Source: an uncultured Ruminococcus sp.
Lineage (GTDB): Bacteria > Bacillota > Clostridia > Oscillospirales > Ruminococcaceae
Length of the DNA stretch: 47,284 nucleotides
Reading direction: 5' to 3'
Assembly (NCBI GenBank): GCA_947627625.1
Contig: CANQWR010000013.1
Location: 1 to 47,284 of the forward strand
This document shows positions 5,283-42,978 of this stretch, piece after piece; positions within the stretch are counted from its first letter, which is position 1; every line of letters begins with the position of its first letter. Under the pieces are notes generated by a model, which saw only the letters and a list, made by a program, of their open reading frames with translations, was not told the origin of the DNA and ran no database searches. The position numbers and the translations under genes are program-made.

Positions 5283-5715
5283 CTTGATATTGGGGGTGTT
5301 TCTTCTGTGGAAATAATCATGGGGAGTTGGGGGCGAAGCCCCCCAACAGCCTACAAATTAAAATCTCTAAAAAAATATAATTTTAGAAAAATTATTTTTT
5401 GGGCAAAGCCCCCTGCCCCTCATCGTTCCTAAAAAAATTTATACTGCCTTACGGCTTTGGACTGGGGGACGCTGTCCCCCAGACCCCCTGCCAAAGGGGC
5501 AAAGCCCCTTTGGAAACCCGTAATTATTTTTAGTTTTGCGACTATTCAAGTTTATGAGAGTCGAGAGTGTCTCCTCTGTGGGAATAATCATGGGGGGTCT
5601 GGGGGCGGGGTATGGGGTGTCCCCATTTTCAAATCTCCCCCGACGGGGGTTTGGGGAGCGAAGCCCCCAACTGTTTCCCAACAGTCCATAAATCAAAAAA
5701 ATTATTTTTTCCCCA
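5283..5715. repeat. Modular G/C-run hairpin repeat, locus 1
   Basis: This fills much of the 734-bp gap between divergent genes. It contains, in order: the TGTGG(A/G)AATAATCATGGGG word, a GGGGGC/GCCCCC hairpin, the AT-rich palindrome at 5366-5402, GGGCAAAGCCC, the boundary words ATCGTTC and GCCTTACGG, the hairpin CAAAGGGGC-AAA-GCCCCTTTG, the AGTTTTGCGACTA word, and a second TGTGGGAATAATCATGGGG block with ATGGGGTGTCCCCAT. The bases from 5716 to 5845 are AT-rich without recognisable genes. Confidence 0.85.
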
Positions 5716-5845
5716 TTATCACAATTATATCACACATTATTGAAATAAACTTAAATCGGGAATTTTATATATTTTTTAATCAGTAAAAAAATTATATGCT
5801 TTTTTGTGCATTTCAACAGTTTTCTCAAAAAAAGCAGTCCCGTTG

Positions 5846-5874
5846 TTGACGTACCCGAAAATCTATGTTAATAT
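5846..5874 (+). promoter_or_regulatory. Sigma-A promoter for the helical hypothetical protein
   Basis: TTGACG (5846-5851), a 17-nt spacer, then TAATAT (5869-5874), about 92 nt before the ATG at 5966. The -35 box matches five of six bases and the -10 box four of six. Confidence 0.6.
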
Positions 5875-5965
5875 ATATACTGATAAATATTATCTCCGTG
5901 GAGAATTTTTCCCCGCTCTTCGGAAATAGTTCAGAATAAAAATTCAGATAAGGAGTAAACACAAT

Positions 5966-6670
5966 ATGCAGTCACCAAGCGAAAGAAAAAAGACAAAGCT
6001 ATCCAAAACACTCCTGCTCTCATCAGCTTTAATCAAAAAATATGACGAGCTTTACAAAGTGTACTGCGAAAGCGGTTACACAAAAGAACTATGTGATTCC
6101 TACGCATCCGCCTTTGTTGACGACATAAAAAAGCCTGCAAGTTTCGATATTATACAGACTGCCCGTCTTTACGACAAGATCTATGACTACAAAAATGCCT
6201 GTTTCTATCTCGATATGCTCTCCGACAAAAAACTCGGCAATGAGGACAGGTTTGACTTCTGCACCGAAATGCTCAAAAATTACAGCAAGCGTGGAAAATG
6301 GCGTGACGCTGAGGATTTCCGCACCGAAAACATAAGTTTTATGCAGACATATGCCGAAAAAATTCCAACCGAAAAACAGGCTGATATGTACATAGCCCTC
6401 GCCCTTGCAGACTGTTCCGCAAAAAAGTACAATGAGGCTTTTACTATTATCAGAAATTTCGGATACCGTCCAAAAGGTACTCACGATGTCCACTTTATGG
6501 AACTTCTCATTGCAGGTATCTATATCTGTGCCTGTGAGGACAACGGAGAAGTCCGCAATGCCGTACAGAATGCGGAGAGTTATCTGAAACTTATGAACTC
6601 CTTTGAGTTTGACTGGTGTTCGGACTACTACAGGAAACGCATTGAAAACGCTTCAAAAAGACTGATATGA
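5966..6670 (+). CDS. Hypothetical soluble protein, probably alpha-helical repeat (TPR-like)
   Basis: A 234-residue protein I do not recognise. It is rich in Lys, Tyr, Asp and Cys and has no signal peptide or membrane segment. Alternating helix-forming stretches such as IIQTARLYDKIYDYKNACFY and QADMYIALALADCSAKKY suggest TPR-like helical hairpins, a fold normally used to bind proteins. The start is set by AAGGAG about 10 nt upstream. The gene is monocistronic: its own promoter lies before it and a terminator lies directly after it. No neighbour suggests a partner. Confidence 0.75.
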   Translation: MQSPSERKKTKLSKTLLLSSALIKKYDELYKVYCESGYTKELCDSYASAFVDDIKKPASFDIIQTARLYDKIYDYKNACFYLDMLSDKKLGNEDRFDFCTEMLKNYSKRGKWRDAEDFRTENISFMQTYAEKIPTEKQADMYIALALADCSAKKYNEAFTIIRNFGYRPKGTHDVHFMELLIAGIYICACEDNGEVRNAVQNAESYLKLMNSFEFDWCSDYYRKRIENASKRLI

Positions 6671-6675
6671 CCGCA

Positions 6676-6709
6676 AAAAACCGCCTGCCTTGACAGACGG
6701 TTTTTTATT
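6676..6709 (+). terminator. Terminator after the helical hypothetical gene
   Basis: Stem ACCGCCTG/CAGACGGT with one mismatch, flanked by A6 and followed by T6. It starts 5 nt after the stop codon. Confidence 0.8.
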
Positions 6710-6717
6710 ATCGTTAT

Positions 6718-6972
6718 TAAAACGGGGGCTTCGCCCCTTTGGAATTTGGGGGGCGTTGCCCCCCACCCCCCCTATTAGAACGATTAGAGGCAGGGGGCTT
6801 TGCCCCCTGAACCCCCACTGGGGGCTCCGCCCCCAGACCCCCGCCGGGGGGAAGTATCCCCCCGGACCCCCCATGATGTAAACTCGTCCGGTTTTGCTAA
6901 TACTTTGATAGTCGCAAAACTAAAAATATCTAATCACGGGTTTCCAAAGGTGCTTTTCCCCTTATCGTTCTA
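6718..6972. repeat. Modular G/C-run hairpin repeat, locus 2
   Basis: Mostly in the opposite orientation to locus 4. It contains GGGGGCTTCGCCCC, GGGGGGC/GCCCCCC, ATTAGAACGATTAG, the hairpin GGGGGCTCCGCCCCC, CCCCCCATGATGTAAAC, the AGTCGCAAAACT word (6911-6922) and GGGTTTCCAAAGG. It sits between two convergent genes and ends with CCCCTTATCGTTCTAAT just past the glmU stop. Confidence 0.85.
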
Positions 6973-6973
6973 A

Positions 6974-8341
6974 TTATTTTTTGAGTTTTTTGAGAGTGTA
7001 ACCCTCTTTGATTTTTAACTCACTTCTCTCTATCGCAAGAGCATAATCGGGGACATCTTTTGTAATGGTAGTTCCTGCGGCAGTGTAGACTCCCTTGCCG
7101 AGACTGACGGGGGCTATAAGGTTCGTGTTACTGCCTATAAAGCTGTAGTCCCCTATCGAACACCTGCTCTTTGAAATGCCGTCAAAGTTCACCGTGACCG
7201 TTCCCGCTCCTATATTCGACTTCTTGCCTATGTCGCTGTCTCCTATATACACAAGGTGTGCAATCGCCGTATTGCTGCCGACCGTGGAATTTTTTATCTC
7301 CACAAAGTCATTTATCTTTGCACCCGATTTTATAACGCTGTCGGGACGTATATGTACATATGGTCCTATCTCCGCACCACTCTCTATTTTTGCACCGCAA
7401 GCCTGAGAAGTGTTGAAAACTACACCGTCTCCGAGGACACATTCGTCAAGAATACAGTATGGTCCTATCAGACAGTTCCTGCCTATCTTTGTACGGTTTT
7501 TCAGGACAGTTCCCATAAGGACTTCTGTACCCTCTCCGATTTCCACGCCTCTCTCTATCACTATTCCGTCCGTACAGGTGAAGCTCACGCCGTTTTCAAG
7601 GTGCTGTTCAATTATCATCTTCCTTGCGTACTCGTTCAGTTCAAGCAAGTCTTTTCTGCTGTTTGCTCCCTTTATTATGTCCGCATTAGATGACTTGTAA
7701 GCTCCCGCACTCTTCTCCTGTGCGATTGCAATCGCTATTGTGTCCGTGAGATAATACTCCTTCTGTGCGTTGTCGTTCGTCAGATTTTTCAGAAATTCAA
7801 CCAAATCGGCTGTCCTGAACCAGTACGCCCCCGAATTTACCTCTTTTATTTTCTTCTGCTCTTCGTTTGCGTCTTTCTGCTCAACTATTCCGCTTATACC
7901 GCCTTTTACTCTGATTATCCTGCCGTAACCCTGCGGATTTTCAAGCTCTGCCGTTATGACCGTGACAGAATTTTCGTTCTGTATGTGGAGCATAAGGGAG
8001 TCGCTTATTGTCTTTTTGTCTATAAACGGTGCGTCTCCGCACAGCACAAGCGTATTTCCCGAAGTGTCCTCTTCAAGAAATTCCATAGCCTGCATTACTG
8101 CGTGACCTGTGCCGAGCCTCTCCTCCTGCATGACCGTCCTGCACCTGTCCCCGACATACTCGTCTATCAGTTCCCCTCTGAAACCCTTTACTACACATAT
8201 ATCCCCTATGTCTGCACTCTCACACGCCGATATTACCCATTCAAGCATCGGCTCTCCCAGAACCCTGAAAAGGGGTTTGGGAATGTCCGCTTTCATGCGT
8301 TTTCCCTGTCCGCCTGCGAGTATTACCGCCTTATTTGTCAT
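6974..8341 (-). CDS. glmU: Bifunctional GlmU: GlcNAc-1-P uridyltransferase / glucosamine-1-P acetyltransferase
   Basis: This enzyme makes UDP-N-acetylglucosamine, the precursor of peptidoglycan and teichoic acids, in two steps. The N-terminal uridyltransferase domain begins with LAGGQGKRMKADIPKP and has LCGDAPFI. The C-terminal half is a left-handed beta-helix with hexapeptide repeats and the acetyltransferase motifs HIRPDS, NDFVEIKNS, AHLVYIGDSDIG (catalytic His) and NIGAGTVTVNFDG. Length (about 455) is normal. An in-frame ATG at 8350 is possible, but GGAAG directly abuts it; the ATG at 8341 lies 9 nt from that site, so I choose 8341. It follows a small membrane-protein gene with a gap of under 40 bp and is probably cotranscribed with it. 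Confidence 0.96.
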   Translation of the reverse strand: MTNKAVILAGGQGKRMKADIPKPLFRVLGEPMLEWVISACESADIGDICVVKGFRGELIDEYVGDRCRTVMQEERLGTGHAVMQAMEFLEEDTSGNTLVLCGDAPFIDKKTISDSLMLHIQNENSVTVITAELENPQGYGRIIRVKGGISGIVEQKDANEEQKKIKEVNSGAYWFRTADLVEFLKNLTNDNAQKEYYLTDTIAIAIAQEKSAGAYKSSNADIIKGANSRKDLLELNEYARKMIIEQHLENGVSFTCTDGIVIERGVEIGEGTEVLMGTVLKNRTKIGRNCLIGPYCILDECVLGDGVVFNTSQACGAKIESGAEIGPYVHIRPDSVIKSGAKINDFVEIKNSTVGSNTAIAHLVYIGDSDIGKKSNIGAGTVTVNFDGISKSRCSIGDYSFIGSNTNLIAPVSLGKGVYTAAGTTITKDVPDYALAIERSELKIKEGYTLKKLKK

Positions 8342-8378
8342 ATAAACCATCTTCCTTTCGTGATTTTTTTAATATTTT

Positions 8379-8948
8379 CTATTCGGTTTTTTTCCTGCTC
8401 TTTACAATCGGCACAAGTACAAACACAAGACCGATTATATTTGCTCCCACTATAAATATTACGTCAAAAACTCCCACAGTCATTATAAATTCGAAATAAT
8501 TGGGTACTATTTTTACTACGCCGTCCACGGGATAACAGTAATCCGAACCAAGTTTTATTTTTTTATCATCTGAATAATTTATGACACTGTCCTCTTCCAT
8601 GTATAAATTGACAGTCTTATAAAATTTCGTCACAAGGGGGAGTTTCACCGTGTCGGGGACGGCAATGTTGTCCCCACTTGACAGAAAAGCCGACCGGTGC
8701 AGAATATGATAGCCGTCATGGGTACTCCGATATGTGACAGACGAAAAAAGCCCGCTGTTTATGACTTTGTACTCTCTGTTTGCCTTTTCGTACTTTGCAT
8801 TTTCCGAAAAATAGAGTATCAACAGCAGTCCCATAATTCCGTACATCACCGCATTGCCGATTTTCAGAATTTTTTTCAGTTTTCCCGATGACTTCATGAT
8901 ATTAAAAGCAGTCAGTGCGAGAATTAAAATCACAGCTAAGATTTCCAT
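8379..8948 (-). CDS. Hypothetical membrane protein upstream of glmU
   Basis: A 189-residue protein of unknown function. It has a hydrophobic N-terminal segment (about 1-18), a second at about 33-48 and a third near 152-180, with a predicted non-cytoplasmic domain of about 100 residues between the last two that contains YRSTHDGYHILHRSA. The C-terminus is basic (VKSRKKTE). GGAGGAGG lies about 6 nt upstream of the ATG. It comes just before glmU on the same strand, so a shared transcript is likely, but the protein itself gives no clue to a wall function. Confidence 0.75.
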   Translation of the reverse strand: MEILAVILILALTAFNIMKSSGKLKKILKIGNAVMYGIMGLLLILYFSENAKYEKANREYKVINSGLFSSVTYRSTHDGYHILHRSAFLSSGDNIAVPDTVKLPLVTKFYKTVNLYMEEDSVINYSDDKKIKLGSDYCYPVDGVVKIVPNYFEFIMTVGVFDVIFIVGANIIGLVFVLVPIVKSRKKTE

Positions 8949-8964
8949 AGTCGTACCTCCTCCG

Positions 8965-9102
8965 GGTGTGTTGATTTGTGGGGAGTCTACCCCAAAAAAT
9001 AATTTTATTAAAATTATATCTTTTTGGAGATTTTATTTTTTATTTTGTGAGCTATTGGGGTATTCACCCCCCGCCCCGATTCAACACCCCGAAATTATTT
9101 TT
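8965..9102. repeat. Modular repeat, locus 3, with AT-rich palindrome
   Basis: Located in the divergent gap between the membrane-protein gene and ppdK. The AT palindrome at 8992-9027 (arms CCAAAAAATAATTTT / AAAATTAT..TTTTTGG) is the reverse complement of the copies at loci 1, 7 and 8. It is flanked by the short hairpins GGGGAGTCTACCCC and GGGGTATTCACCCC. It holds fewer G/C modules than the other loci. Confidence 0.7.
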
Positions 9103-9260
9103 CAGAACAGCGTTTACCCGTTCCGTCATCTTAATATTCACATTTCATTATCACAGATTTTAACAAAAATTTCAAGTGTTTTTTGAAAAATAAAGCCGTC
9201 AGGAAATATTTTTGTGAAAAGTGCTACAAAATCAACCCGAAAATTTTCATGTATTGTATA

Positions 9261-9289
9261 TGGTAATTTTTCACAGAGTGTGTTATAAT
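9261..9289 (+). promoter_or_regulatory. Extended -10 promoter of ppdK
   Basis: TGTTATAAT (9281-9289) is a full extended -10 element. The -35 position 17 nt upstream reads TGGTAA, a weak match, as expected when the extended -10 carries recognition. Transcription should start near 9296. Confidence 0.7.
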
Positions 9290-9295
9290 AGATTC

Positions 9296-9382
9296 AAGGC
9301 GGAGAGAATGTTGTCTGTCCTCTCCGGTCTGCCGAATGCAGATGATAAAACGGACAAAAGAAAAAACTGGAGGTAATTACCA
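9296..9382 (+). promoter_or_regulatory. Structured 5' leader of ppdK
   Basis: Two consecutive hairpins are visible: CGGAGAG/CTCTCCG (9300-9306 with 9320-9326) and TCTGC/GCAGA (9328-9332 with 9338-9342). TGTCC in the first loop can also pair with GGACA further on, giving an alternative fold. It ends in the ribosome site GGAGG (9369-9373). I cannot match it to a known riboswitch. Confidence 0.4.
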
Positions 9383-12007
9383 ATGGCAAACAAATACTGT
9401 TACCTTTTCTCTGAAGGTAATGCTAACATGAGAGAGCTTCTCGGCGGTAAGGGTGCAAACCTCGCTGAGATGACAAACATAGGTCTTCCCGTTCCGCAGG
9501 GCTTCACTATCACTACCGAAGCTTGTACTCAATACTATGAGGACGGCGGTATCTCCGATGAGATTATGGCTGAAATCAATGAGTATATCGCTAAGATGGA
9601 GGAAGTTACAGGAAAGAAATTCGGCGACAAGGACAACCCGCTCCTCGTCTCCGTTCGTTCGGGTGCAAGAGCTTCTATGCCCGGCATGATGGACACTATC
9701 CTCAACCTCGGTCTCAATGAGACTGTTGTAAACGCTATCGCTGAGAAGTCCGGAAACGCTCGTTGGGCTTGGGACTGCTACAGAAGATTTATCCAAATGT
9801 ACTCCGACGTTGTTATGGAAGTCGGCAAGAAGTACTTTGAGGAACTCATCGACAAGATGAAAGAGGAAAAGGGCGTAAAACTCGATGTTGAGCTTGATGC
9901 CAACGACCTCAAGAACCTCGCTTCACAGTTCAAAGCCGAATACAAGGCTAAGATAGGTGTTGACTTCCCCGACGACCCCAAGGAACAGCTCGTGGGTGCT
10001 ATAAAAGCCGTTTTCCGCTCTTGGGACAACCCCCGTGCAAACGTTTACAGACGTGACAATGATATTCCTTTCTCTTGGGGTACTGCCGTAAACGTTCAGT
10101 CTATGGCTTTCGGTAACATGGGCGATGACTGCGGTACAGGTGTTGCGTTTACTCGTGACCCCGCTACAGGTGAAAAGAAACTCATGGGTGAGTTCCTCAC
10201 AAATGCTCAGGGTGAGGACGTTGTTGCAGGTGTCCGCACTCCTATGCCTATCCAGAAAATGGCTGAAACTTTCCCCGAAGCTTATGAAGAGTTCGTAAAG
10301 GTCTGCAAAACTCTTGAAGACCACTACCACGATATGCAGGATATGGAGTTCACAGTTGAAAACAAAAAGCTCTATATGCTCCAGACAAGAAACGGCAAGA
10401 GAACTGCTCAGGCTGCTCTCAAAATCGCTTGTGACCTCGTTGATGAGGGCATGAAGACAGAACAGGAAGCTGTCGCTATGATAGACCCCAGAAACCTCGA
10501 TACACTTCTCCACCCGCAGTTCGATGCGGCTGCTCTTAAGGCTGCTACTCCTATCGGCAAGGGACTCGGAGCTTCTCCCGGTGCCGCTTGCGGTAAGATC
10601 GTGTTCAGTGCCGATGACGCTGAGGCTTGGGCTGCAAGGGGTGAAAAGGTAGTCCTTGTTCGTCTTGAAACTTCTCCCGAAGACATCACAGGTATGAAAG
10701 CTGCACAGGGTATCCTCACGGTTCGTGGCGGTATGACCTCTCATGCTGCCGTTGTTGCTCGTGGTATGGGCGAGTGCTGTGTTTCCGGCTGCGGTGACAT
10801 AAAAATGGACGAAGCTAACAAGAAGTTCGAACTTGCAGGCAAGACTTTCACAGAGGGCGACCCCATCTCCATAGACGGTACTACTGGTAACATCTATGAC
10901 GGTATTATCCCCACTGTTGACGCTCAGATTGCCGGCGAATTTGAGAGAATTATGAACTGGGCTGACAAGTACAGGACTCTCAAAGTAAGAACCAATGCCG
11001 ACACTCCCACAGACGCTAAAAAAGCCCGTGAGCTCGGTGCTGAGGGTATCGGTCTGTGCCGTACAGAGCATATGTTCTTTGACCCCGCAAGAATTGCCGC
11101 TTTCCGTGAGATGATTTGCTCCGACACTGTTGAGGAGAGAGAAGCTGCTCTTGCTAAAATCGAACCCATGCAGCAGGCTGACTTTGAAGCTCTCTATGAG
11201 GCTCTTGAAGGCAACCCTGTTACTATCCGTTTCCTTGACCCCCCTCTCCACGAATTTGTTCCCACTGAGGAGGAGGACATAAAGGCTCTCGCTGAGGCTC
11301 AGGGCAAGTCCGTTGAGACTATCAAGAACATTATCGCAAGTCTCCACGAGTTCAACCCGATGATGGGTCACAGAGGATGCCGTCTCGCCGTAACTTACCC
11401 CGAAATAGCTAAGATGCAGACAAGTGCTGTTATCAAGGCTGCTATCAACGTAAAGAAGAACCACCCCGACTGGACTGTTAAGCCTGAGATTATGATTCCG
11501 CTTGTTGGCGATGTCAAGGAGTTCAAGTTCGTAAAGAAAGTAGTCGTTGAGACCGCTGACGCTGTTATCAAGGCTGCAGGTGCTGACCTCGAATATGAAG
11601 TCGGTACTATGATTGAAATTCCGAGAGCTGCTCTTACAGCTGACGAAATCGCTGCAAACGCCGACTTCTTCTGCTTCGGTACTAACGACCTCACTCAGAT
11701 GACTTACGGCTTCTCCCGTGACGATGCGGGCAAATTCCTCGGTGCTTACTACGACAAGAAAATCTTCGAGAACGACCCGTTCGCTAAACTCGACCAGACA
11801 GGTGTCGGCAAACTCATGAAGATGGCTGTTGAGATGGGCAAGGGTGCTAATGACAAACTCCACTGCGGTATCTGCGGTGAGCACGGCGGCGACCCGACTT
11901 CTGTTGAGTTCTGCCACAAGATCGGTCTGAACTACGTTTCCTGCTCACCTTTCCGTGTTCCGATTGCACGTCTCGCCGCTGCACAGGCTGCTATCAACAA
12001 CAAGTAA
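9383..12007 (+). CDS. ppdK: Pyruvate, phosphate dikinase
   Basis: This cytosolic enzyme interconverts PEP + AMP + PPi and pyruvate + ATP + Pi. The length of 874 residues equals the well-studied Clostridium symbiosum enzyme. The N-terminal nucleotide-binding domain starts with GGKGANLAEMTNIGLPVP. The swivelling phosphohistidine domain has His454 in GGMTSHAAVVARG. The C-terminal TIM barrel has RTEHMFF, GTNDLTQMTYGFSRDD and the catalytic Cys831 in CGICGEHGGDP. GGAGG lies 9 nt before the ATG. Codon use favours GCT, CGT and AAG more strongly than in the neighbours, as expected for a highly expressed gene. In cellulolytic ruminococci PPi-linked glycolysis is the likely role. It has its own promoter, leader and terminator. 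Confidence 0.98.
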   Translation: MANKYCYLFSEGNANMRELLGGKGANLAEMTNIGLPVPQGFTITTEACTQYYEDGGISDEIMAEINEYIAKMEEVTGKKFGDKDNPLLVSVRSGARASMPGMMDTILNLGLNETVVNAIAEKSGNARWAWDCYRRFIQMYSDVVMEVGKKYFEELIDKMKEEKGVKLDVELDANDLKNLASQFKAEYKAKIGVDFPDDPKEQLVGAIKAVFRSWDNPRANVYRRDNDIPFSWGTAVNVQSMAFGNMGDDCGTGVAFTRDPATGEKKLMGEFLTNAQGEDVVAGVRTPMPIQKMAETFPEAYEEFVKVCKTLEDHYHDMQDMEFTVENKKLYMLQTRNGKRTAQAALKIACDLVDEGMKTEQEAVAMIDPRNLDTLLHPQFDAAALKAATPIGKGLGASPGAACGKIVFSADDAEAWAARGEKVVLVRLETSPEDITGMKAAQGILTVRGGMTSHAAVVARGMGECCVSGCGDIKMDEANKKFELAGKTFTEGDPISIDGTTGNIYDGIIPTVDAQIAGEFERIMNWADKYRTLKVRTNADTPTDAKKARELGAEGIGLCRTEHMFFDPARIAAFREMICSDTVEEREAALAKIEPMQQADFEALYEALEGNPVTIRFLDPPLHEFVPTEEEDIKALAEAQGKSVETIKNIIASLHEFNPMMGHRGCRLAVTYPEIAKMQTSAVIKAAINVKKNHPDWTVKPEIMIPLVGDVKEFKFVKKVVVETADAVIKAAGADLEYEVGTMIEIPRAALTADEIAANADFFCFGTNDLTQMTYGFSRDDAGKFLGAYYDKKIFENDPFAKLDQTGVGKLMKMAVEMGKGANDKLHCGICGEHGGDPTSVEFCHKIGLNYVSCSPFRVPIARLAAAQAAINNK

Positions 12008-12052
12008 TCGGGTGACACTACAGGTCAAATAAATTAAAACAAAATAACAAAG

Positions 12053-12087
12053 TCCCCCAAAGAGTAAAATCTTCGGGGGATTTTTTT
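12053..12087 (+). terminator. Terminator of ppdK
   Basis: TCCCCC/GGGGGA stem continuing into AGA/TCT around the loop GTAAAA, with one mismatch, followed by T7. It is nearly identical in sequence to the terminator at 12864-12897. Confidence 0.9.
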
Positions 12088-12855: not shown

Positions 12856-12863
12856 CAAAAAAT

Positions 12864-12897
12864 CCCCCGAAGAGTAAAATCTTCGGGGGATTTTTTT
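12864..12897. terminator. Bidirectional terminator between the lipoprotein and XRE genes
   Basis: A perfect 10-bp stem CCCCCGAAGA/TCTTCGGGGG with loop GTAAAA. T7 follows on the plus strand and T6 on the minus strand, so it serves both convergent genes. The XRE stop codon overlaps the T-run. Confidence 0.9.
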
Positions 12898-13364: not shown

Positions 13365-13664
13365 ATGGTTACTGTTATAACACTTGAGGGTGCTTTTGCG
13401 TCCGAAAATAATATGTGCGATCTGAAAGCAAAGACTATTGAAAAATTCAGGGAATTTCTGACCTTTGAAAATTGCGATATTGTCGACGTGACAAGCGGAA
13501 AAGAGTGCAGAATGCCTTTTGGCAGACGGCAGACTCTCAAAATTGTCTGGAGAGGAAATTCCTCCGCTGTAAAGTCATTTTACCAATCAACTCCCCTGTA
13601 CGGCACTTGCGGGGTGGTCTTTTCCGTGAACCTCTTCAGCTGTGAGAGCGGACAGAGAATATAA
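13365..13664 (+). CDS. Small hypothetical protein under a palindromic operator
   Basis: A 99-residue protein I do not recognise. GGGAGGTG lies 4-5 nt before the ATG, the promoter is consensus and a terminator follows at once, so the gene is real. It has no signal peptide or membrane segment. It is mixed alpha/beta in appearance, with four Cys, one of them in GTCGVVF. The divergent XRE regulator and the palindrome over its promoter suggest it is kept off until a signal lifts repression. A small conditional effector or a stress protein are possibilities, neither shown by sequence. Confidence 0.8.
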   Translation: MVTVITLEGAFASENNMCDLKAKTIEKFREFLTFENCDIVDVTSGKECRMPFGRRQTLKIVWRGNSSAVKSFYQSTPLYGTCGVVFSVNLFSCESGQRI

Positions 13665-13702
13665 AAAATCCCCTGTGAATAAAATCATAGGGGATTTTTT
13701 TT
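13664..13702 (+). terminator. Terminator of the XRE-controlled small gene
   Basis: Stem TCCCCTGTGA/TCATAGGGGA (one G-U pair), flanked by A6 and followed by T8. Confidence 0.88.
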
Positions 13703-13732: not shown

Positions 13733-13975
13733 ACGGGGATTTTGGGGTGAACCTCCCCTGTCTCACAATTTTTTCTTGTCTTCATCACGGGGACGGAGGT
13801 GTTTCCTCTGTGGGAATAATCATGGGGGGTCTGGGGGGATTCTTCCCCCCAGCGGGGGTTTGGGGGCAGAGCCCCCAATGGGGGTTCAGGGGGCAAAGCC
13901 CCCTGCCCCTTATCGTTCTAATAAAAAACTTGGGGGACAATGCCCCCCCAATGGGGATTCAAAGAACCCTGCTCC
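13733..13975. repeat. Modular G/C-run hairpin repeat, locus 4
   Basis: Contains TGTGGGAATAATCATGGGG, CCCCCC-AGC-GGGGG, the hairpin GGGGGCAGAGCCCCC, the hairpin GGGGGCAAAGCCCCC, CCCCTTATCGTTCTAAT and GGGGGACAATGCCCCCC. Positions 13826-13919 match 24861-24960 almost base for base. It lies between two convergent genes and reaches the tatD stop codon. Confidence 0.85.
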
Positions 13976-14758
13976 TTAGAGTTCCACCTGAGAAATTCCG
14001 TAAAATCTCATTGCGTTCTCACACGTTATGTCGAGAATTTCCTGAACGGTCACGCCTTTTACTTCCGCTGCCCTCTCCGCTGTGTAGACTATCATTGAGC
14101 TGTCACAGCGTTTCCCTCTGAACGGCACGGGTGCCATGTAGGGACAGTCCGTCTCAAGCAATAGCCTGTCAAGCGGTACCTGTTCGAGTGCGGAGATCGC
14201 CTTCTTTGCGTTCTTGAACGTCAAAACGCCCGTAAAGCCTATGTACATTCCCATCTTTATGACCTCTTTTGCCGTCTCCGCTGAACCGCTGAAACAGTGG
14301 ACTACTCCCCTCGGTCTGTACTTTTTCAGGATTTCAAGAGTGTCCGCAACAGCATCACGGCTGTGGACTATTATCGGCATATCAAGTTCAAGTGCAAGCT
14401 CGGTCTGCTCACGGAAAAACTTTTTCTGGAGTTCACTGTCAAAATCGTCATAGTGGTAGTCAAGACCTATCTCCCCCACGGCTCTTATTTTATTATTATT
14501 TTTAATAAGCTCAGTGAGAGTCTCCCTGTAATCTTCGGGAGCCTCCCCCACGCTCTCGGGGTGTACCCCCACTGCTGAAAATATATAGTCATATTTCGTG
14601 CAAAGTTCCGAATTTTTTACGCTGTCCCCGACTGATGCAGAGGCGAGTGTTATATACCTCACTCCTCTTTCGGGCAGACTTTTTAACAAATCTTCTCTGT
14701 CCTCGTCAAATTCACTACCCGAATAGTGGGCGTGCGTGTCAAAAATATTACTCAGCAT
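13976..14758 (-). CDS. tatD: TatD-family metal-dependent deoxyribonuclease
   Basis: A 260-residue amidohydrolase-fold hydrolase. Metal and active-site motifs are complete: FDTHAHYSG near the start, GEIGLDYH, IVHSRDA, VVHCFSGS and LLLETDCPYMAP. TatD proteins are 3'-5' DNA exonucleases linked to DNA repair. The frame is open to 14797, but the family begins just before the FDTHAH motif, so the ATG at 14758 is chosen. That start overlaps the end of the LCP-like gene by 11 bp, which implies translational coupling. A radical SAM gene of the TatD-associated type lies about 3.3 kb away at 18074. Confidence 0.95.
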   Translation of the reverse strand: MLSNIFDTHAHYSGSEFDEDREDLLKSLPERGVRYITLASASVGDSVKNSELCTKYDYIFSAVGVHPESVGEAPEDYRETLTELIKNNNKIRAVGEIGLDYHYDDFDSELQKKFFREQTELALELDMPIIVHSRDAVADTLEILKKYRPRGVVHCFSGSAETAKEVIKMGMYIGFTGVLTFKNAKKAISALEQVPLDRLLLETDCPYMAPVPFRGKRCDSSMIVYTAERAAEVKGVTVQEILDITCENAMRFYGISQVEL

Positions 14759-15653: not shown

Positions 15654-15675
15654 TGATAATACTCCTTTCAATAAT

Positions 15676-15952
15676 ATGCCTTACGGCATTAGGATTTTGG
15701 GGGTGTGCCCCCCCTTGACCCCCAAAATTAAAACGTTAGAAGATTATATCATGGGGGTGGGGGTTGTTTCCTCTGTGGGAATAATCATGGGGGGTTCGGG
15801 GGCGGGGTATGGGGTGTCCCCATTTTCAAATCTCCCCCCGACGGGGGTTTGGGGGCAAAGCCCCCTGCCCCTTATCGTTCTAATGGGGGGAGTGGGGGGC
15901 ATAGCCCCCCACAAAGCGTAGCCCCCAAAAATCCACAACCATAAGGCATTAT
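15676..15952. repeat. Modular G/C-run hairpin repeat, locus 5
   Basis: Bounded on the left by AATATGCCTTACGGCATTAGG and on the right by ATAAGGCATTATAAA. Inside are TGTGGGAATAATCATGGGG, ATGGGGTGTCCCCAT, CCCCCC-GAC-GGGGG, GGGGGCAAAGCCCCC, CCCCTTATCGTTCTAAT and GGGGGGCATAGCCCCCC. It lies between two co-directional minus-strand genes. Confidence 0.85.
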
Positions 15953-16025
15953 AAATTATACAGGGGAAACCCTATTGCAAAATTCTGAAATTGTGATATA
16001 ATATAATTGGGCTTGCGAAATACCG

Positions 16026-20266: not shown

Positions 20267-20647
20267 TTAATCAAGATGTTGCTCCGAAAATACGCATTCT
20301 CCGTTGAAAAATGCCCCTATCACCTTTTTGTCGCCAAAATAAAGCCCCTTGATTGCACTGTCCGCCGAAAAACACCTTGTCAGGTTCACAGTAATATTTC
20401 TCGGCAGTATCGGCACATACGGGTACTCGTCCGCCTTTTTCAGCATGAGACTTTCGGGGTACGGCTCTGTGTGGAACGGCATTTTTTCCATGTCGGGAAG
20501 CACGGGGACGTGCGGGTACTCGCCTGTTTTTTGGAGCATGAGACTTTCGGGGTACGGCTTTGTATGGAACGGGATTTCCGCAATATCGGGAAGTTCTGAA
20601 AGAGACGGGTATCCCCTGTTTTTGTTTGGGTCAAGTACAAAACTCAT
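20267..20647 (-). CDS. Phage-tail-like small protein with 31-residue repeats
   Basis: A 126-residue protein. Two full 31-residue repeats and one partial repeat share (E/G)YP-x-(V/L)-x-x-LPD-x-x-x-(I/M)PFHT-x-PYPESLML-x-K. At the DNA level the period is 93 bp, with a long shared run at 20444 and 20537. The C-terminal part (SAIKGLYFGDKKVIGAFFNG) resembles short beta motifs at the ends of phage tail or baseplate proteins, which I recognise only loosely. It is the last gene of a three-gene cassette, 3 bp after the beta-helix gene. No signal peptide. It could be a tail accessory protein or a fibre-tip chaperone. Confidence 0.72.
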   Translation of the reverse strand: MSFVLDPNKNRGYPSLSELPDIAEIPFHTKPYPESLMLQKTGEYPHVPVLPDMEKMPFHTEPYPESLMLKKADEYPYVPILPRNITVNLTRCFSADSAIKGLYFGDKKVIGAFFNGECVFSEQHLD

Positions 20648-22499: not shown

Positions 22500-22752
22500 G
22501 GCTTTGTGGGGGGCTCTGCCTTGTGGGGGGCTACGCCCCCCACACCCCCCCATTAGGACGATAAGGGGCAGGGGGCTTTGCCCCCTGAACCCCCATTGGG
22601 GGCTCTGCCCCCAAACCCCCGTCGGGGGGAAGTATCCCCCCGAACCCCCCATGATATTCTACTGATTTAATTTTGGGGGTCAAGGGGGGTTACACCCCCC
22701 TTGTGGGGGCTTGGGGGGCAACGCCCCCCAATATTCCAAAGCCGTAAGGCAT
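22500..22752. repeat. Modular G/C-run hairpin repeat, locus 6
   Basis: Reverse orientation. It contains ATTAGGACGATAAGGGG, GGGGGCTTTGCCCCC, GGGGGCTCTGCCCCC, CCCCCGTCGGGGGG, CCCCCCATGATATTC, GGGGGGCAACGCCCCCC and the boundary CCGTAAGGCAT at 22741. It sits between two co-directional minus-strand units and abuts the stop of the TPM gene. Confidence 0.85.
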
Positions 22753-22755
22753 ATA

Positions 22756-24740: not shown

Positions 24741-24781
24741 AAATATCACTTCCATATCAAATTTTGTACGGGGTACGCTGC

Positions 24782-25570
24782 TTTGTGGGGGCAACTTCCC
24801 CTAATCGTTATAACGGGGTGTGACCCTCCTTGACCCCAAAAATATAAACGGTAGATTATCATGGGGGGTCTGGGGGGATTCTTCCCCCCAGCGGGGGTTT
24901 GGGGGCAGAGCCCCCAATGGGGGTTCAGGGGGCAAAGCCCCCTGCCCCTTATCGTTCTAATTTATAATGCCTTACGGCATTGGGATTTGGGGGGCGTTGC
25001 CCCCCAAGCCCCCTACCAAAGGGGCAAAGCCCCTTTGGAAACCCGTAATTAGATATTCTCAGTTTTGCGACTACCTAAGTATCAGCGAAACTGTTTGGGT
25101 TTACATCATGGGGGTTCGGGGGGCGGGGTATGGGGTGTCCCCATTTTCAAATCACCCCCCCGACAGGGGGTCTGGGGGACGGAGTCCCCCAGTGGGGGTT
25201 CAGGGGGCAAAGCCCCCTGCCCCTTATCGTTCTAATATAATGCCTTACGGAATTGGGATTTGGGGGGCGTTGCCCCCCAAGCCCCCTACCAAAGGGGCAA
25301 AGCCCCTTTGGAAACCCGTAATTAGATATTCTCAGTTTTGCGACTACCTAAGTATCAGCGAAACTGTTTGGGTTTACATCATGGGGGGTTCGGGGGGCGG
25401 GGTATGGGGTGTCCCCATTTTCAAATCACCCCCCGACAGGGGGTCTGGGGGCAAAGCCCCCTGTCTCCCATCGTTCTAAATAAAAAATATTAAATTTCCA
25501 AAAAAAATATAATTTTAAGAAAATTATTTTTTGGAGGTTCAAAGACAACTGCCCCTTGTCGTTCCAATAA
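24782..25570. repeat. Modular G/C-run hairpin repeat, locus 7, with internal tandem duplication
   Basis: The longest repeat tract. Two direct copies, about 24919-25178 and 25194-25451, are offset by 273-275 bp and nearly identical. Each has CCCCTTATCGTTCTAAT, GCCTTACGG, GGGGGGCGTTGCCCCCC, CAAAGGGGC-AAA-GCCCCTTTG, AACCCGTAATTAGATATT, AGTTTTGCGACTACC, TTTACATCATGGGGG, ATGGGGTGTCCCCAT and CCCCC-GACA-GGGGG. The AT-rich palindrome at 25498-25534 closes the tract. A locus-4-like block precedes it. Confidence 0.9.
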
Positions 25571-25692
25571 AAAAGTCCATATAAATTATAATTCATATTA
25601 TAACATATTAAAACGGGATTTGCAATATTTTTTTTAATCTGTGTAAAAGACAATTCCAAAAAGTAATATTTACCAAAAAATTACTTTAAGTG

Positions 25693-38190: not shown

Positions 38191-39030
38191 ATGAAATTAC
38201 TTCAATGTTATGTTGATGATATTATAAAAACCGCTCTGCTTGAGGACATAAATTATATTGATGTCTCAGCGGACAATCTCATTCCCGAGGAACTCAAAAG
38301 CTCCGCCTACTATGTGGCAAAAGATTCGGGAATTGTCTGTGGTATCGAAATCGCAAAGCGTGTCTTTGAACTCGTCGGGGGCGGTGTTGACTTCAGAATA
38401 CTCAAAAAAGACGGCTGTGAGGTACAAAACGGCGACATTATCGCTGAAATGGAGGGCAGTACGCTGACACTCCTGAAAGGCGAAAGGACTGCACTGAATA
38501 TTCTGCAACATATGTCGGGAATTGCTACTGCTACAAATAAATGCGTGAAACTCGTTAAGGGTACTAACGCTTCCGTGACGGATACAAGAAAAACTCTCCC
38601 TGGACTACGTGCTTTGCAGAAGTACGCCGTGACTGTCGGAGGGGGCAAAAATCACAGGTTCAACCTCTCCGATGCCGCTATGTTAAAAGACAACCACATA
38701 GACGCTTTTGGCGGTATAACTCCCGCTGTCCGTGCACTCCGTGAAAAAATCGGTCACACCGTCAAAATTGAAGTGGAAGTCCGCACCCTTGACGAACTCA
38801 GAGAGGCTCTCGAAAATCACGTTGAAATAATTATGCTTGACAATATGTCGTGCGACACTATGCGTGAGGCTGTGGAAATAACCGCAAAAAAGGCACTTCT
38901 TGAGGCTTCGGGGAACGTCACCGAAAAAAATATCCGTGAAGTTGCCGAAACAGGAGTTGATATAATTTCACTCGGTGCGTTGACACATTCAGTGAAATGT
39001 TTTGACATTTCTATGAAAATAAAAAAATAA
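38191..39030 (+). CDS. nadC: Nicotinate-nucleotide pyrophosphorylase (quinolinate phosphoribosyltransferase)
   Basis: Converts quinolinate and PRPP to nicotinate mononucleotide, a later step of the NAD pathway begun by nadB. It is 279 residues long, normal for the family. Motifs: GERTALNILQHMSGIAT, DTRKTLPGLRALQKYAV, GGGKNHRFNLSDAAMLKDNHI (substrate-binding Arg, His and Lys) and IEVEVRTLDEL. The frame is open from 38110, inside the VanY gene, but the ATG at 38191 with GGAG 10 nt upstream and the family N-terminus fix the start, 32 bp after the VanY stop. An A/T-only spacer follows. Confidence 0.95.
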   Translation: MKLLQCYVDDIIKTALLEDINYIDVSADNLIPEELKSSAYYVAKDSGIVCGIEIAKRVFELVGGGVDFRILKKDGCEVQNGDIIAEMEGSTLTLLKGERTALNILQHMSGIATATNKCVKLVKGTNASVTDTRKTLPGLRALQKYAVTVGGGKNHRFNLSDAAMLKDNHIDAFGGITPAVRALREKIGHTVKIEVEVRTLDELREALENHVEIIMLDNMSCDTMREAVEITAKKALLEASGNVTEKNIREVAETGVDIISLGALTHSVKCFDISMKIKK

Positions 39031-39087
39031 AACAAAATTAAAATTAAAATAAAAATTAAAATAAATTTATCAAAGGAGAATTTTACC

Positions 39088-40461
39088 ATGCCAAACGAAA
39101 AAATCCCGTACAAAATTTACCTCTCTGAGGACGAACTCCCAAAACAGTGGTACAACGTCCGTGCGGACATGAAAAAGAAACCTGCTCCGCTTCTCAACCC
39201 TGCCACGGGAAAACCCGTCACCGCTGAGGAACTCGGTGCTGTTTTCTGCGGTGAACTCGTAAAACAGGAACTCGACGACACTACGCCATTTATAGACATT
39301 CCCGAAGAGATTCAGAGTTTCTACAAAATGTACAGACCTTCTCCGCTTGTCAGGGCTTACTGTCTCGAAAAGGCTCTTGACACCCCCGCCGAAATTTACT
39401 ACAAATTTGAGGGCAACAACACAAGCGGTAGTCACAAACTCAACTCCGCAATCGCTCAGGCTTATTACGCCAAAAAACAGGGTCTCAAAGGTGTCACCAC
39501 GGAGACGGGTGCGGGACAGTGGGGTACTGCACTCTCTATGGCTTGCTCCTATTTCGACCTCGACTGTCAGGTCTATATGGTCAAAGTCTCGTATGAACAG
39601 AAACCTTTCAGGCGTGAAGTTATGCGGACTTACGGTGCAAGTGTCACCCCGTCACCGTCCGACACAACGGAAGTCGGCAGAAAGATTCTTGCCGAATTTC
39701 CCGACACTAACGGAAGTCTCGGCTGTGCAATCTCTGAAGCCGTTGAGAGTGCCACGACAAAAGAGGGTTACAGATATGTTCTCGGAAGCGTTCTCTCACA
39801 GGTACTCCTCCACCAGACTGTAATAGGTCTTGAAACTAAAACCGCTATGGATAAATACGGCATAAAGCCCGATATAATCATAGGCTGTGCGGGCGGCGGT
39901 TCAAATCTCGGCGGACTCATTGCCCCTTTTATGGGCGAAAAACTCCGTGGCGAAAATGACTACGAAATAATCGCTGTTGAACCTGCGTCATGTCCAAGTC
40001 TCACAAGAGGTGTCTACGCTTACGACTTCTGCGACACGGGAAAAGTCTGTCCTCTACAGAAAATGTACACCCTCGGAAGCGGTTTTATGCCGTCCCCGAA
40101 CCATGCGGGCGGTCTCCGCTATCACGGTATGAGCAGTATTCTCTCCGAACTCTACGACCAGAAACTCATGACAGCTGTGTCCGTTGAACAGACCGCTGTC
40201 TTTGAGGCTGCACAGAAATTCGCAAGAGTAGAGGGAATTTTGCCTGCTCCCGAAAGCAGTCACGCCATTAAAACCGCTATTGACAAGGCTTTGGAGTGCA
40301 AAAAGACAGGCGAAAAGAAAACTATTCTCTTCGGTCTCACGGGTACGGGCTACTTCGATATGTACGCTTATCAGGCTTACAATGACGGCAGAATGAACGA
40401 CTATATCCCCACCGATGAGGAGTTACAAAAGTCGTTTGCGACACTCCCGAAAATAAACTGA
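39088..40461 (+). CDS. TrpB2-type tryptophan synthase beta-like protein
   Basis: A PLP enzyme of 457 residues, longer than standard TrpB (about 400) and matching the TrpB2 class. Lys117 in GNNTSGSHKLNSA binds PLP; TETGAGQWGTALSMACSYF, CAGGGSNLGGLIAPF and EPASCPSLTRG are typical. TrpB2 proteins join indole and serine without a TrpA partner, and some may deaminate serine or phosphoserine. No trpA or other trp gene is in the window. The gene follows nadC on the same strand after an A/T-only spacer with AAAGGAG before the ATG, so it may be the last gene of the nadB unit. Confidence 0.93.
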   Translation: MPNEKIPYKIYLSEDELPKQWYNVRADMKKKPAPLLNPATGKPVTAEELGAVFCGELVKQELDDTTPFIDIPEEIQSFYKMYRPSPLVRAYCLEKALDTPAEIYYKFEGNNTSGSHKLNSAIAQAYYAKKQGLKGVTTETGAGQWGTALSMACSYFDLDCQVYMVKVSYEQKPFRREVMRTYGASVTPSPSDTTEVGRKILAEFPDTNGSLGCAISEAVESATTKEGYRYVLGSVLSQVLLHQTVIGLETKTAMDKYGIKPDIIIGCAGGGSNLGGLIAPFMGEKLRGENDYEIIAVEPASCPSLTRGVYAYDFCDTGKVCPLQKMYTLGSGFMPSPNHAGGLRYHGMSSILSELYDQKLMTAVSVEQTAVFEAAQKFARVEGILPAPESSHAIKTAIDKALECKKTGEKKTILFGLTGTGYFDMYAYQAYNDGRMNDYIPTDEELQKSFATLPKIN

Positions 40462-40593
40462 CACTTCAAAATAAAAATAAAAATAATAATATACAGTCTG
40501 TATTATACGCACAGTGTATTCCGCTTGTAACGACAAAAAACTGTTCACTATCTGTATAAAATAATATATCATATATTACAAATATTATAAACC

Positions 40594-40635
40594 AAAAAGA
40601 CCTGCACGGCTTTTGCACCGCTCAGGTCTTTTTTA
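40594..40635. terminator. Bidirectional terminator between trpB2 and the ABC exporter
   Basis: AAAAAGACCTG/CAGGTCTTTTTT arms with inner GC pairing. Both strands have a T-run, suiting convergent genes. The preceding 40462-40593 is AT-rich with no further feature. Confidence 0.88.
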
Positions 40636-40674
40636 TTTTATTTTTATTATTTTAATTATTTTATATATAAACTC

Positions 40675-42006
40675 TCACTCAACGGTCTTTGCCTTCTTCA
40701 TTTTGGACTTCTGCCCGAAATTCAGCGACATTGTGAGTATCTTGTCCGACTTGAAAAGTCTCTGTGCAAAGTACATACAGATCAGGAAAACTACCGTCTG
40801 ATAGGCAAGTCCGCCGAAAAATACCGCCGTGTTGCCGAACATAAGATTAGGCATTGCCGAAAATGTGTGCGTGAACGGTATTGCGTACAGTATTATTCTG
40901 AGTGCAAGCGGAAGCGAATTTATGTCCGAGAGCATTGATATAAGATACGGTATCATCGCCAGTATCATAAGCGGCATCATGACGGTCTGTGAGGACTTTG
41001 TGTCGTTCACAAGTGCACCGAGCATTATCGAAACTGCAAGGCATATCAGAATTGTCAGAAACAGCTGTACTCCTATCAGTATGTAATCTGTTATGCCGAG
41101 AGATATTCCCAGTCTGAGCATTGCGGACTGTGTTGTCATTGATAACTGTCCCGCAACGACGTTCCCCGCAGCCGCCTCTGCTCCCGTATTTGTCATATCC
41201 GACATAAAAGACGAAAAACCTACCATGTAAAATATTGCGTTCAGGAGTGCCACTATCGCCGCACCGAGCATTTTCGCCCCTATTATTGCAGTCCTTGAAA
41301 CAGGTGTGGACAGGAGCGTTTCAAGAGTTTTGTCTATTTTTTCGTTCGCTATTGCACTGATTATCATTTGCGACACCATCATTATCAGTACAAAAACTAT
41401 TATCGGCATTACCATATTCTGTGTCATAACTTTTGAGATTATGCTGTCGGGCGAAATGTTTGCGGACTTCTCCCCCACAACCGTATTCTCATTCAGGACT
41501 ATCGGGTTGTTCATGACGGAAATTTCCTCCTCCGACAGATTGTACTTCTCCGCTATGAAGTGCGATATGCCTGAACTTATTGAGTTCACCGCAAGACTTG
41601 TGTCACTTGACAGGTTTGACAGTGCAGATGCCGATTTCAGTCTCGAAACTGTGATAAGCTGTGCCTTCTGTCCGCTCTCGACAGTCTCCGTGAAACCCTC
41701 GGGGATTATCACCAGATTTTCAGAACCTCTCTCTTTAAGGATACTGCCGTAGTCATCGCCCTCTGTGTCACACTCCTCTATCTCTGCACCGCTCTCTCTG
41801 AGATAGTCCATAATCTGTGCGGTTAGTTCCGTATTGTCCCTGTCGTCAATCGTCACCGTGTATTCCTCTTTTGTAAGTTCGTCCATGCTGTTGGACATTA
41901 CGTTCCCCATGACCATAAATATTAACATAGTCAGGACAAGTCCTGCTATCATCTGTGCATTTATCAGTTCTTTTAACTCTTTCATCAGAAGATTAAAGAA
42001 TTTCAT
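40675..42006 (-). CDS. ABC-2 type exporter permease
   Basis: A 443-residue membrane protein of the ABC-2/NatB-like group. TM1 at about 19-36 is followed by a large extracytoplasmic domain (about 45-190, acidic, with SYNLS-like and TRSxxxA stretches), then five or six TM segments (about 205-425) including VMPIIVFVLIMMVSQMIISAIANEK, the family's coupling signature (EKIDKTLETLLSTPVSRTAIIGAK) and LGALVNDTKSSQTVMMPLMILA. It overlaps the ATPase gene by 14 bp, so the two form one transporter. Substrate cannot be read; NatAB exports Na+, and related pairs export peptides or antibiotics. Confidence 0.9.
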   Translation of the reverse strand: MKFFNLLMKELKELINAQMIAGLVLTMLIFMVMGNVMSNSMDELTKEEYTVTIDDRDNTELTAQIMDYLRESGAEIEECDTEGDDYGSILKERGSENLVIIPEGFTETVESGQKAQLITVSRLKSASALSNLSSDTSLAVNSISSGISHFIAEKYNLSEEEISVMNNPIVLNENTVVGEKSANISPDSIISKVMTQNMVMPIIVFVLIMMVSQMIISAIANEKIDKTLETLLSTPVSRTAIIGAKMLGAAIVALLNAIFYMVGFSSFMSDMTNTGAEAAAGNVVAGQLSMTTQSAMLRLGISLGITDYILIGVQLFLTILICLAVSIMLGALVNDTKSSQTVMMPLMILAMIPYLISMLSDINSLPLALRIILYAIPFTHTFSAMPNLMFGNTAVFFGGLAYQTVVFLICMYFAQRLFKSDKILTMSLNFGQKSKMKKAKTVE

Positions 42007-42733
42007 TCTCGTTCACCACCCTTTCAAAGACCTCCTCCAGATTTTCAGCGTTGTAACGCTGTTTCAGCTCCTCTGTAGTTCCCGTCACCATAAGGTTTCC
42101 CTTTGCTATTATGCCGACCCTGTCCGAGACAAACTCTATCTCAAGCATATTGTGCGACGACAGCAAAAATGACATCTTTTTCTCGTGTGCAAGTTTTTTT
42201 ATGGTTTTTCTTATCTCGATCGCATTCAGGACATCAAGTCCGCTTGTAGGCTCGTCCAGTATTGCAAGTTTCGGGTTCGTCATAACTGCCCTTGACAGCA
42301 ACAGTTTCCTTATCATTCCACGGCTGTATGAACCTATCTTGTCATTCAGCCTATCACCAAGCTGGTTTATATCCTTTGCCCTCTCAACGTACTCCTCGAT
42401 CTGTTTCGGGTTCTCCGTGAAAAGACCTGCCATGAATTTCAGATACCCCGTACCCGTCATGTTTTTATAAGCACCCGCCTCGTCGGGAAGATACGTTATG
42501 CACTCCCTGACCTTCTGCGGTTCAGTCTTTATGCTGTGTCCCGCAACTACTGCGTCACCGTCTGTCGGCGTTAGAAGTGTCGAAATCATGCGTATTGTAG
42601 TAGTTTTCCCCGCACCGTTAGGTCCTATTAACGCAAATATTTCACCCTCGTAAATCTCAAAAGAGATTTTGTTCACGGCGAGAACTTTTGTGTACTGTTT
42701 CGACAGATTTCTCACCTCAAGAACTTTGTCCAT
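41993..42733 (-). CDS. ABC transporter ATP-binding protein (NatA-like)
   Basis: A 246-residue ATPase that drives the permease gene it overlaps. Walker A is GPNGAGKTT, Q-loop region ITYLPDEAG, Walker B LAILDEPTSGLD and H-loop LLSSHN. The signature motif is YSRGMIRKLLLSRA, in place of LSGGQ, a known variation in NatA-like ATPases. AAAGGGG lies before the ATG. The gap upstream holds a modular repeat. Confidence 0.93.
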   Translation of the reverse strand: MDKVLEVRNLSKQYTKVLAVNKISFEIYEGEIFALIGPNGAGKTTTIRMISTLLTPTDGDAVVAGHSIKTEPQKVRECITYLPDEAGAYKNMTGTGYLKFMAGLFTENPKQIEEYVERAKDINQLGDRLNDKIGSYSRGMIRKLLLSRAVMTNPKLAILDEPTSGLDVLNAIEIRKTIKKLAHEKKMSFLLSSHNMLEIEFVSDRVGIIAKGNLMVTGTTEELKQRYNAENLEEVFERVVNENEIL

Positions 42734-42825
42734 AAAATAACCCCTTTCATGTTTTTTTCAATATTGTAACATTATAACATTTATTTTCTCTGCTGTCAAC
42801 CTCCCCCGCCAATTGGCTGAGTTCC

Positions 42826-42978
42826 CATCATGGGGGTCAAGGGGCAGAGCCCCTTGTGGGGGTTCAGGGGGCAAAGCCCCCTGCCTCTTATCGTTCTAAT
42901 TAAAAAATATTAAATTCCCAAAAAAGTATAATTTTAAGAAAATTATTTTTTGGGCAAAGCCCCCTGCCCCTTAGCGTC
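42826..42978. repeat. Modular G/C-run hairpin repeat, locus 8
   Basis: CATCATGGGGGTC, GGGGCAGAGCCCC, GGGGGCAAAGCCCCC, TCTTATCGTTCTAAT, the AT palindrome at 42918-42953 and GGGCAAAGCCCCCTGCCCCTTAGCGT. The rest of 42734-43368 holds an A17-18 tract near 43033-43050 and AT-rich sequence without a recognisable gene. Confidence 0.85.

Follow-up and report, generated by a model that had tools for sequence, protein, structure and literature searches.

Hairpin tracts in the window and in the genome

The stretch considered here (the window) comprises 47,284 nucleotides from an uncultured Ruminococcus sp. (contig CANQWR010000013.1 of assembly GCA_947627625.1), and eight of the gaps between its predicted genes hold tracts built from short G-run/C-run hairpins. 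We examined these tracts within a sample of 447,284 bases of the same genome, made up of the window and 20 further stretches (21.9% of an assembly of 38 contigs and 2,041,636 bases that is 87% complete). Tracts were defined by a scan for repeated intergenic words across the sample, and genes were called with our own codon-usage script, not a standard gene finder. The scan recovered all eight tracts that an earlier note on the window had listed, with nearly the same borders; by our gene calls four lie in divergent, two in convergent and two in co-directional gaps, the three settings that the note had named. The words it quoted as shared between tracts are all present, three of them when ≤1 mismatch is allowed, but none occurs in the tract at 8990-9075.

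Chance is excluded for the window tracts by two 17-base words: the right-end word CCCCTTATCGTTCTAAT occurs nine times in the window and a core hairpin word 10 times (both at ≤2 mismatches), where 100 shuffles gave an expectation of 0.00. Across the sample there are 93 tracts with a total length of 21,243 bp (4.7%); a stricter definition gives 101 tracts and 16,155 bp, and the wider definition is the one used here. The sample is typical of the assembly: its 38 right-end words compare with 40 predicted from the count in the whole genome, and its 400 G5-hairpins with an expected 389. Scaling up from the 93 tracts, we estimate that the whole assembly holds ~420. The family is spread over the genome, and the alternative that copies exist in the window only is false.

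Module order and core anatomy

The commonest part of a tract is a core of ~105 bp: ATCATG, then units in which a short spacer separates a G-run from the hairpin after it, and finally the right end CCCCTTATCGTTCTAAT. Among 52 cores found by pattern, 42 are of three-hairpin length (H1, H2 and H3); the remainder have two hairpins, four hairpins or a long H1. Alternatives are found on the left side of the core: a degenerate ACAGTAGA module, a CCTCTGTGGGAATAATC module, or a chain of GCCTTACGGCATT, a CCAAAGGGG hairpin and TTTTGCGACTA. Tandem units may extend the core on the right side, each with a GCACAGTCCCCGACAG stretch, an AT-rich hairpin and a right end of its own. The GCCTTACGG module was also considered as a general end of the element and was rejected, being present at just some tracts.

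The modules keep a fixed polarity. The sample has 83 arrays comprising 382 modules, and 287 of the 299 neighbouring pairs in them share a strand; 250 of these same-strand pairs stand in one order, 26 run backward (mostly at the start of a further unit) and 11 are equal. The order was derived from the same data on which it was scored, while strand agreement is independent of it. An array as a whole may point in either direction (41 plus, 39 minus, 3 undecided). The varied module order given in the earlier note does not hold inside arrays, and its description of both orientations is correct for whole arrays.

Pairing and folding of the hairpins

The core is a string of hairpins with co-varying arms. 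We aligned 39 of the 42 cores of three-hairpin length (38 of them distinct); the three left out carry a long H1, whose closing pairs are mismatched in one case, and for this reason all H1 forms were also counted separately. In the alignment 98.9% of stem cells are paired, and cells in which both sides have changed number 57, against 17.9 (sd 5.0) in shuffles and ≤3 when the partners are slid. Closing pairs swap as sets: TC/GA, CT/AG, CC/GG and CAA/TTG in H1; TT/AA, CT/AG and CAA/TTG in H2. Among all H1 hairpins that a pattern search finds in the sample, both closing pairs are matched in 64 of 66 short forms and 8 of 11 long forms. Mispairs of the two kinds are equally rare (three G-U and two A-C in the cores; two and two over all hairpins), and so these small numbers give no sign that one RNA strand counts.

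The reference core (13819-13922) folds at -32.5 kcal/mol with DNA parameters (z -4.16); as single-strand DNA, both strands form stable folds (z -4.16 and -5.28). The share of bases in perfect hairpins is 39% in tracts and 10% in tract-free intergenic DNA. In 19 copies that have the ACAGTAGA module, the cores are 87% alike whereas the sequence 26-75 bp leftward is 37.5% alike; the nearest 25 bp leftward are 71% alike, a value partly fixed by the search pattern. The core is thus younger than its neighbour, corrected against it or more constrained.

Placement relative to genes

The tracts avoid genes: 110 of the 21,243 tract bp lie inside predicted genes, though these cover 85% of the sample, and 1 of the 400 G5-hairpins falls within a gene. 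This agrees with the intergenic location first noted in the window. Of gaps ≥100 bp (shorter ones were tallied separately), tracts occupy 23 of 38 divergent, 14 of 23 convergent and 45 of 102 co-directional ones (convergent versus the rest, p = 0.37; divergent versus co-directional, p = 0.09). In co-directional gaps the core lies on the gene strand in 18 cases and on the opposite strand in 22 (p = 0.64), and it is closer to the upstream stop in 21 of 40. The lack of orientation or position bias speaks against terminators, leaders and mRNA stabilisers and, taken with the avoidance of genes, against terminators or RNA genes; the earlier view that the tracts are not simple terminators stands.

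Distribution outside this genome

As far as we searched, the tract sequences are confined to one species. The right-end word (≤1 mismatch) occurs 184 times (93 + 91) in its own genome and not at all in 99 congeners, and the pattern G5-N(3-8)-C5 occurs 1,777 times per strand (overlapping matches counted) against 0-92 in 124 congeners. A clade-confined family in hundreds of copies had been envisaged; the estimated ~420 tracts bear out the hundreds, and the confinement is, as far as searched, narrower, to a single species. In a one-genome-per-species collection, from which our own record was possibly left out, the exact right-end word gave three single matches in unrelated organisms, which we take as chance. 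It had no match in IMG/VR, and phage and plasmid collections gave no tract match; an origin from a phage or plasmid was discarded on these grounds.

The architecture recurs in relatives with other sequences. A 705-bp query matches at least five of the 124 congeners at E 1e-6, a lower bound since few candidates per genome were scored, and the matches fall in the CCAAAGGG module and the neighbouring hairpin. The hairpin CCAAAGGG-N-CCCTTTGG is found in 42 of 297 sampled genomes of the family (our own included, with 72 per strand), reaching 104 in one species and zero in the three other sampled species of that species' genus; a reversed control never exceeded three. This distribution indicates a kind of element that recurs patchily, its sequences differing by species.

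Comparison with the gaps of relatives

Gap lengths were compared with those between orthologous gene pairs in a small set of stretches available from relatives. Where our own gap bears a tract (12 gaps, 15 comparisons; median tract, 329 bp), it is longer than its counterpart by a median of 252 bp; for 17 tract-free gaps the median excess is 15 bp. Six of the 12 tract-bearing gaps are longer than the relative's by 232-508 bp. In the gap at 5231-5966, inspection by eye shows the promoter-side sequence to be kept in four relatives (G029, G063, G116 and G048); our tract is in none of them, and at this place G116 has a hairpin string of its own.

Close relatives also differ from one another. G116 and G063 align at ~92% over 116 kb with 20 length differences >40 bp (those ≤40 bp were left off the list). 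One is a 275-bp insert with CCAAAGGG and GGGGGAC hairpins and GACTAA on both flanks, the empty site having one GATTAA; another is a 160-bp hairpin string without G5 runs and with a TTA duplication. In G112 and G031 a related palindromic element of ~190 bp occupies the same locus and is inverted in one species, the flanks not. The two copies (1392-1581 of stretch L039 and 1492-1682 of L041) are 89% alike in reverse, and their flanks are collinear at 91%.

Several other G116/G063 differences are MITE-like inserts of other families (MITE, miniature inverted-repeat transposable element). These polymorphic inserts were seen in stretches L139-L140, L144 and L147 of G116 against L124, L131, L132, L168, L175 and L176 of G063, and have the ends TACTAATCTC..GAGATTAGTA and AGAGCCTGTT..AACAGGCTCT.

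At the ends of our own 93 tracts, whose borders are approximate, direct matches (5.20 against 5.26 ± 0.13 permuted) gave no sign of target duplication, and inverted matches (5.41 against 5.36 ± 0.13 permuted) none of terminal inverted repeats. A few single tracts carry inverted ends (e.g. 15675-15958).

Searches for machinery and known families

The tracts carry no transposase, as the earlier note had said. In the 87% complete assembly we found no match to Y1_Tnp (PF01797), to RVT_1 or to DDE_Tnp_1 (PF01609), other transposase families not being searched. Among 48 hand-picked relatives, Y1_Tnp scored over cut-off in 10 of the 23 genomes rich in hairpins and in 11 of the 25 poor in them, and so does not track hairpin load. 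A Y1/RAYT enzyme (RAYT, the transposase associated with repetitive extragenic palindromic (REP) elements) was rejected as driver on both counts, and a reverse transcriptase or DDE_Tnp_1 transposase on the lack of a match in the assembly. Retroposition (a constant 3′ end with a variable 5′ end) was dropped because there was no reverse-transcriptase match and the 5′ parts look like alternative modules, not a truncation series. As for the tags found at the foot of REP hairpins, neither GTAG nor CGTC is in the core consensus of 39 copies, and GTAG occurs only inside the optional ACAGTAGA left module. Since terminal repeats, target duplications, tags and a RAYT were all sought and not found as features of the family, we do not class it as MITE or REP.

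No tract matched an Rfam family at the gathering score, the nearest being BTnc005 (26.9 bits against 174.8) and Clostridiales-2 (25.3 against 58.6), and a known RNA family in the tracts was ruled out on this basis. The sole window match over an Rfam gathering score is a 5S rRNA at the window end. Literature searches returned, among the matches listed, no description of such a hairpin family in this bacterial group. The earlier judgement of an unrecognised intergenic hairpin family is borne out: a known element with its transposase was not found with the models used.

Features of the window

The make-up of the eight tracts is given in Table 1.

Table 1. Hairpin tracts of the window and their modules
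Feature	Position	Strand	Setting and content
Tract 1	5229..5669	+	Divergent gap; AT hairpin, GCCTTACGG module at 5446, CCAAAGGGG hairpin 5491-5513
Tract 1, further modules	5532; 5577	+	AGTTTTGCGACTA at 5532, TGTGGGAATAATCATGGGG at 5577
Tract 1, core			Truncated; long H1 hairpin with mismatched closing pairs
Tract 2	6724..6976	-	Convergent gap; minus-strand array, core 6779-6877(-), TTTTGCGACTA module 6909(-)
Tract 2, stray right end	6958-6974	+	
Tract 3	8990..9075	-	Divergent gap; AT-rich hairpin module and short G4/C4 hairpin, without core
Tract 4	13798..13977	+	Convergent gap; TGTGGGAATAATCATGG module and canonical three-hairpin core 13819-13922
Reference core	13819..13922	+	ATCATG, then H1, H2 and H3, each after a G-run, then right end CCCCTTATCGTTCTAAT
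Tract 5	15675..16003	+	Co-directional gap; GCCTTACGGCATT module, left module AAAATTAAAACGTTAGA, TGTGGGAATAATC module
Tract 5, core and end	15784-15884 (core)		Long-H1 core; inverted ATAAGGCATTATAAATT close to right end
Tract 6	22501..22753	-	Co-directional gap; minus-strand array, GCCTTACGG module 22738(-), right end 22552-22568(-)
Tract 7	24778..25579	+	Divergent gap; longest tract; core 24858-24961
Tract 7, after core	from 24963 and 25236		Two full units in tandem (spacing 273 bp), followed by AT hairpin and right end
Tract 8	42825..42974	+	Divergent gap; two-hairpin core 42827-42900, then AT-rich hairpin 42917-42954 and truncated unit

Some other features of the window lie outside these tracts. 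The 5S rRNA match (47208-47284, minus strand; 41 bits, over the gathering score) is clipped by the window end, and the break in the contig seems to fall at an rRNA operon. Three genes are each followed by a terminator-like hairpin with a T-run (12049-12087, 12859-12897 and 13664-13702); the three hairpins are similar, the second and third being 95% and 72% like the first, and are unrelated to the G-run family. Two tandem 93-nt repeats, 77% alike, lie within an open reading frame (20403-20588).

Discussion

We consider that the tracts are probably copies of a species-specific, non-autonomous composite hairpin repeat, an ordered string of hairpins that has recently multiplied in one species. In this string a GCCTTACGG module, CCAAAGGGG hairpin and TTTTGCGACTA module, or an ACAGTAGA or TGTGGGAATAATC left module in their place, precede the H1-H2-H3 core and right end, and tandem AT-hairpin units are an optional continuation. 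The reading draws on the copy number, the restriction to intergenic DNA, the fixed polarity, the covariation of the arms and the absence from congeners, and also on gaps longer than those of relatives (in a small set) and on related elements that are present or absent between two close species. New copies would arise when an existing copy is inserted into intergenic DNA, either by an enzyme supplied in trans or by replication or recombination that recognises the hairpins as DNA. Slippage or unequal exchange at the G5/C5 runs may add and remove units, which would yield cores of one to four hairpins and tandem arrays; hairpins replaced or corrected as whole units would change in both arms together; and copies within genes would be removed by selection. 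The pattern is explained in this way without any host function. Candidates for the copying agent are an unsampled transposase and host replication/repair acting on hairpins.

Several observations weigh against this reading. For the other six of the 12 compared gaps the longer one belongs to the relative (744-1301 bp) and may hold extra genes. It is a relative that shows the GACTAA duplication, and the element there is related but different, with other sequence outside the hairpins. In our own genome insertion is not shown at base level, as the tract ends have no target duplication or inverted repeat above permutation, and no mobilising enzyme was found with the Y1_Tnp, RVT_1 and DDE_Tnp_1 models, 13% of the genome being missing. 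The conservation of the core could reflect selection. As regards pairing, two of five covariation measures (pairs with any double change; further pair types) are not above shuffles, and the closing pairs are mismatched in three of the 11 long H1 forms, which look like recombinants.

A classical MITE, that is a short derivative of a DNA transposon mobilised by a resident insertion sequence transposase via terminal inverted repeats, is an unlikely source of the family. Prokaryotic MITEs are short, intergenic, highly base-paired and non-autonomous, at least in those parts of the sources that describe them (PMC3049150, PMC10969869), and the tracts are likewise non-coding, short, intergenic and hairpin-rich; some have inverted ends (15675-15958), and so do some of the inserts between the sister pair, along with short duplications (TTA, GACTAA). 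However, the 93 tracts as a set have no inverted-end or duplication signal over permutation, their module content is variable, their arrays are tandem, and the assembly has no DDE_Tnp_1 or Y1 match to supply a partner transposase (two transposase models only, with 13% of the genome missing). Less probable by some way is a REP or bacterial interspersed mosaic element (BIME) moved by a RAYT, a Y1 HUH transposase, on single-stranded hairpins. Hairpin strings, mosaic units and the use of both strands would suit it, as would the GTAG within the ACAGTAGA left module, and the elements of the GTAG and CGTC superfamilies, as partly set out in PMC3733652, are also small clustered palindromes. Against it, PF01797 is absent from our assembly and is spread evenly over hairpin-rich and hairpin-poor relatives (10/23 versus 11/25), and the core consensus lacks both tags. 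CGTC REPs are themselves said, in part of that source, to be without a dedicated transposase.

The strong folding and the covariation could also point to a functional RNA or regulatory element (a terminator, mRNA stabiliser or attenuator) amplified for its usefulness. This is an improbable account: orientation to co-directional genes is random (18/22, p = 0.64), there is no preference for the upstream stop (21/40), all three types of gap are occupied (14/23 convergent, 23/38 divergent, 45/102 co-directional), G-U pairs are not in excess over A-C mispairs (3 versus 2 in cores, 2 versus 2 in all; small numbers), a T-run is lacking after the core hairpins, and no tract reaches an Rfam gathering score. 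We give least credence of all to G-quadruplex elements, in which the G5 runs rather than the hairpins would be kept. Several runs of G5-6 with 3-nt spacers on one strand might form such a structure, judging from their letters, but in the closing pairs beyond the G/C runs a change on one side goes with a change on the other, something that a quadruplex would not require, and an AT-rich hairpin is among the modules.

Taken as a composite hairpin repeat, the family resembles several known systems in part. BOX of Streptococcus pneumoniae (boxA-boxB(n)-boxC) is likewise intergenic and composed of ordered modules, with a tandem middle module of variable number; the portion of the source concerned gives lengths of 67-637 bp, 86 copies in its Table 1 and over-representation between convergent genes (PMC3049150). 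Our tracts share the fixed order of modules, of which some vary in number (two to four hairpin units; tandem AT-hairpin units). The likeness is one of architecture: here we have a G/C hairpin string in ~420 estimated tracts as opposed to 86 BOX elements, and the excess in convergent gaps is not significant (p = 0.37). A survey of stem-loop repeats in 40 bacterial genomes describes 92 families, two thirds of which share a predicted structure and are intergenic (PMC2267715); in the part of that survey at hand, we noticed no genome of this group among its 40.

In its working, the family is like BOX elements and BIMEs and perhaps most like the GC clusters of yeast mitochondria. These clusters (GC42) and the repetitive hairpin-forming elements of sponge mitochondria are intergenic hairpins that merge, shuffle and vary between close genomes, and the relevant parts of their sources leave the mechanism of amplification open (PMC4478555, PMC2800124). 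GC42 differs in belonging to an organelle genome and in a putative target duplication (AG), at least in the part of PMC4478555 that treats it, where we saw none here. That the family is a true bacterial counterpart, multiplied by host replication/repair with no dedicated transposase or reverse transcriptase, is a doubtful proposal: template switching or conversion would take place at the G/C-run palindromes. Were the whole hairpin the copied unit, this would explain the paired changes in the arms, the young cores beside decayed neighbours and the tandem growth, as well as the in-place inversion in a relative and the occurrence of species with hundreds of hairpins when congeners have few or none.

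About 1 base in 20 of the sampled genome belongs to this hairpin repeat. It has the look of a recent burst limited to one species, and offers a direct reading of how hairpin repeats grow, are constrained in pairing and are lost; relatives with zero, few or ~100 such hairpins allow a search for its driver. The family also bears on the multiplication of palindromic repeats that lack a transposase, in bacterial genomes and in organelles.

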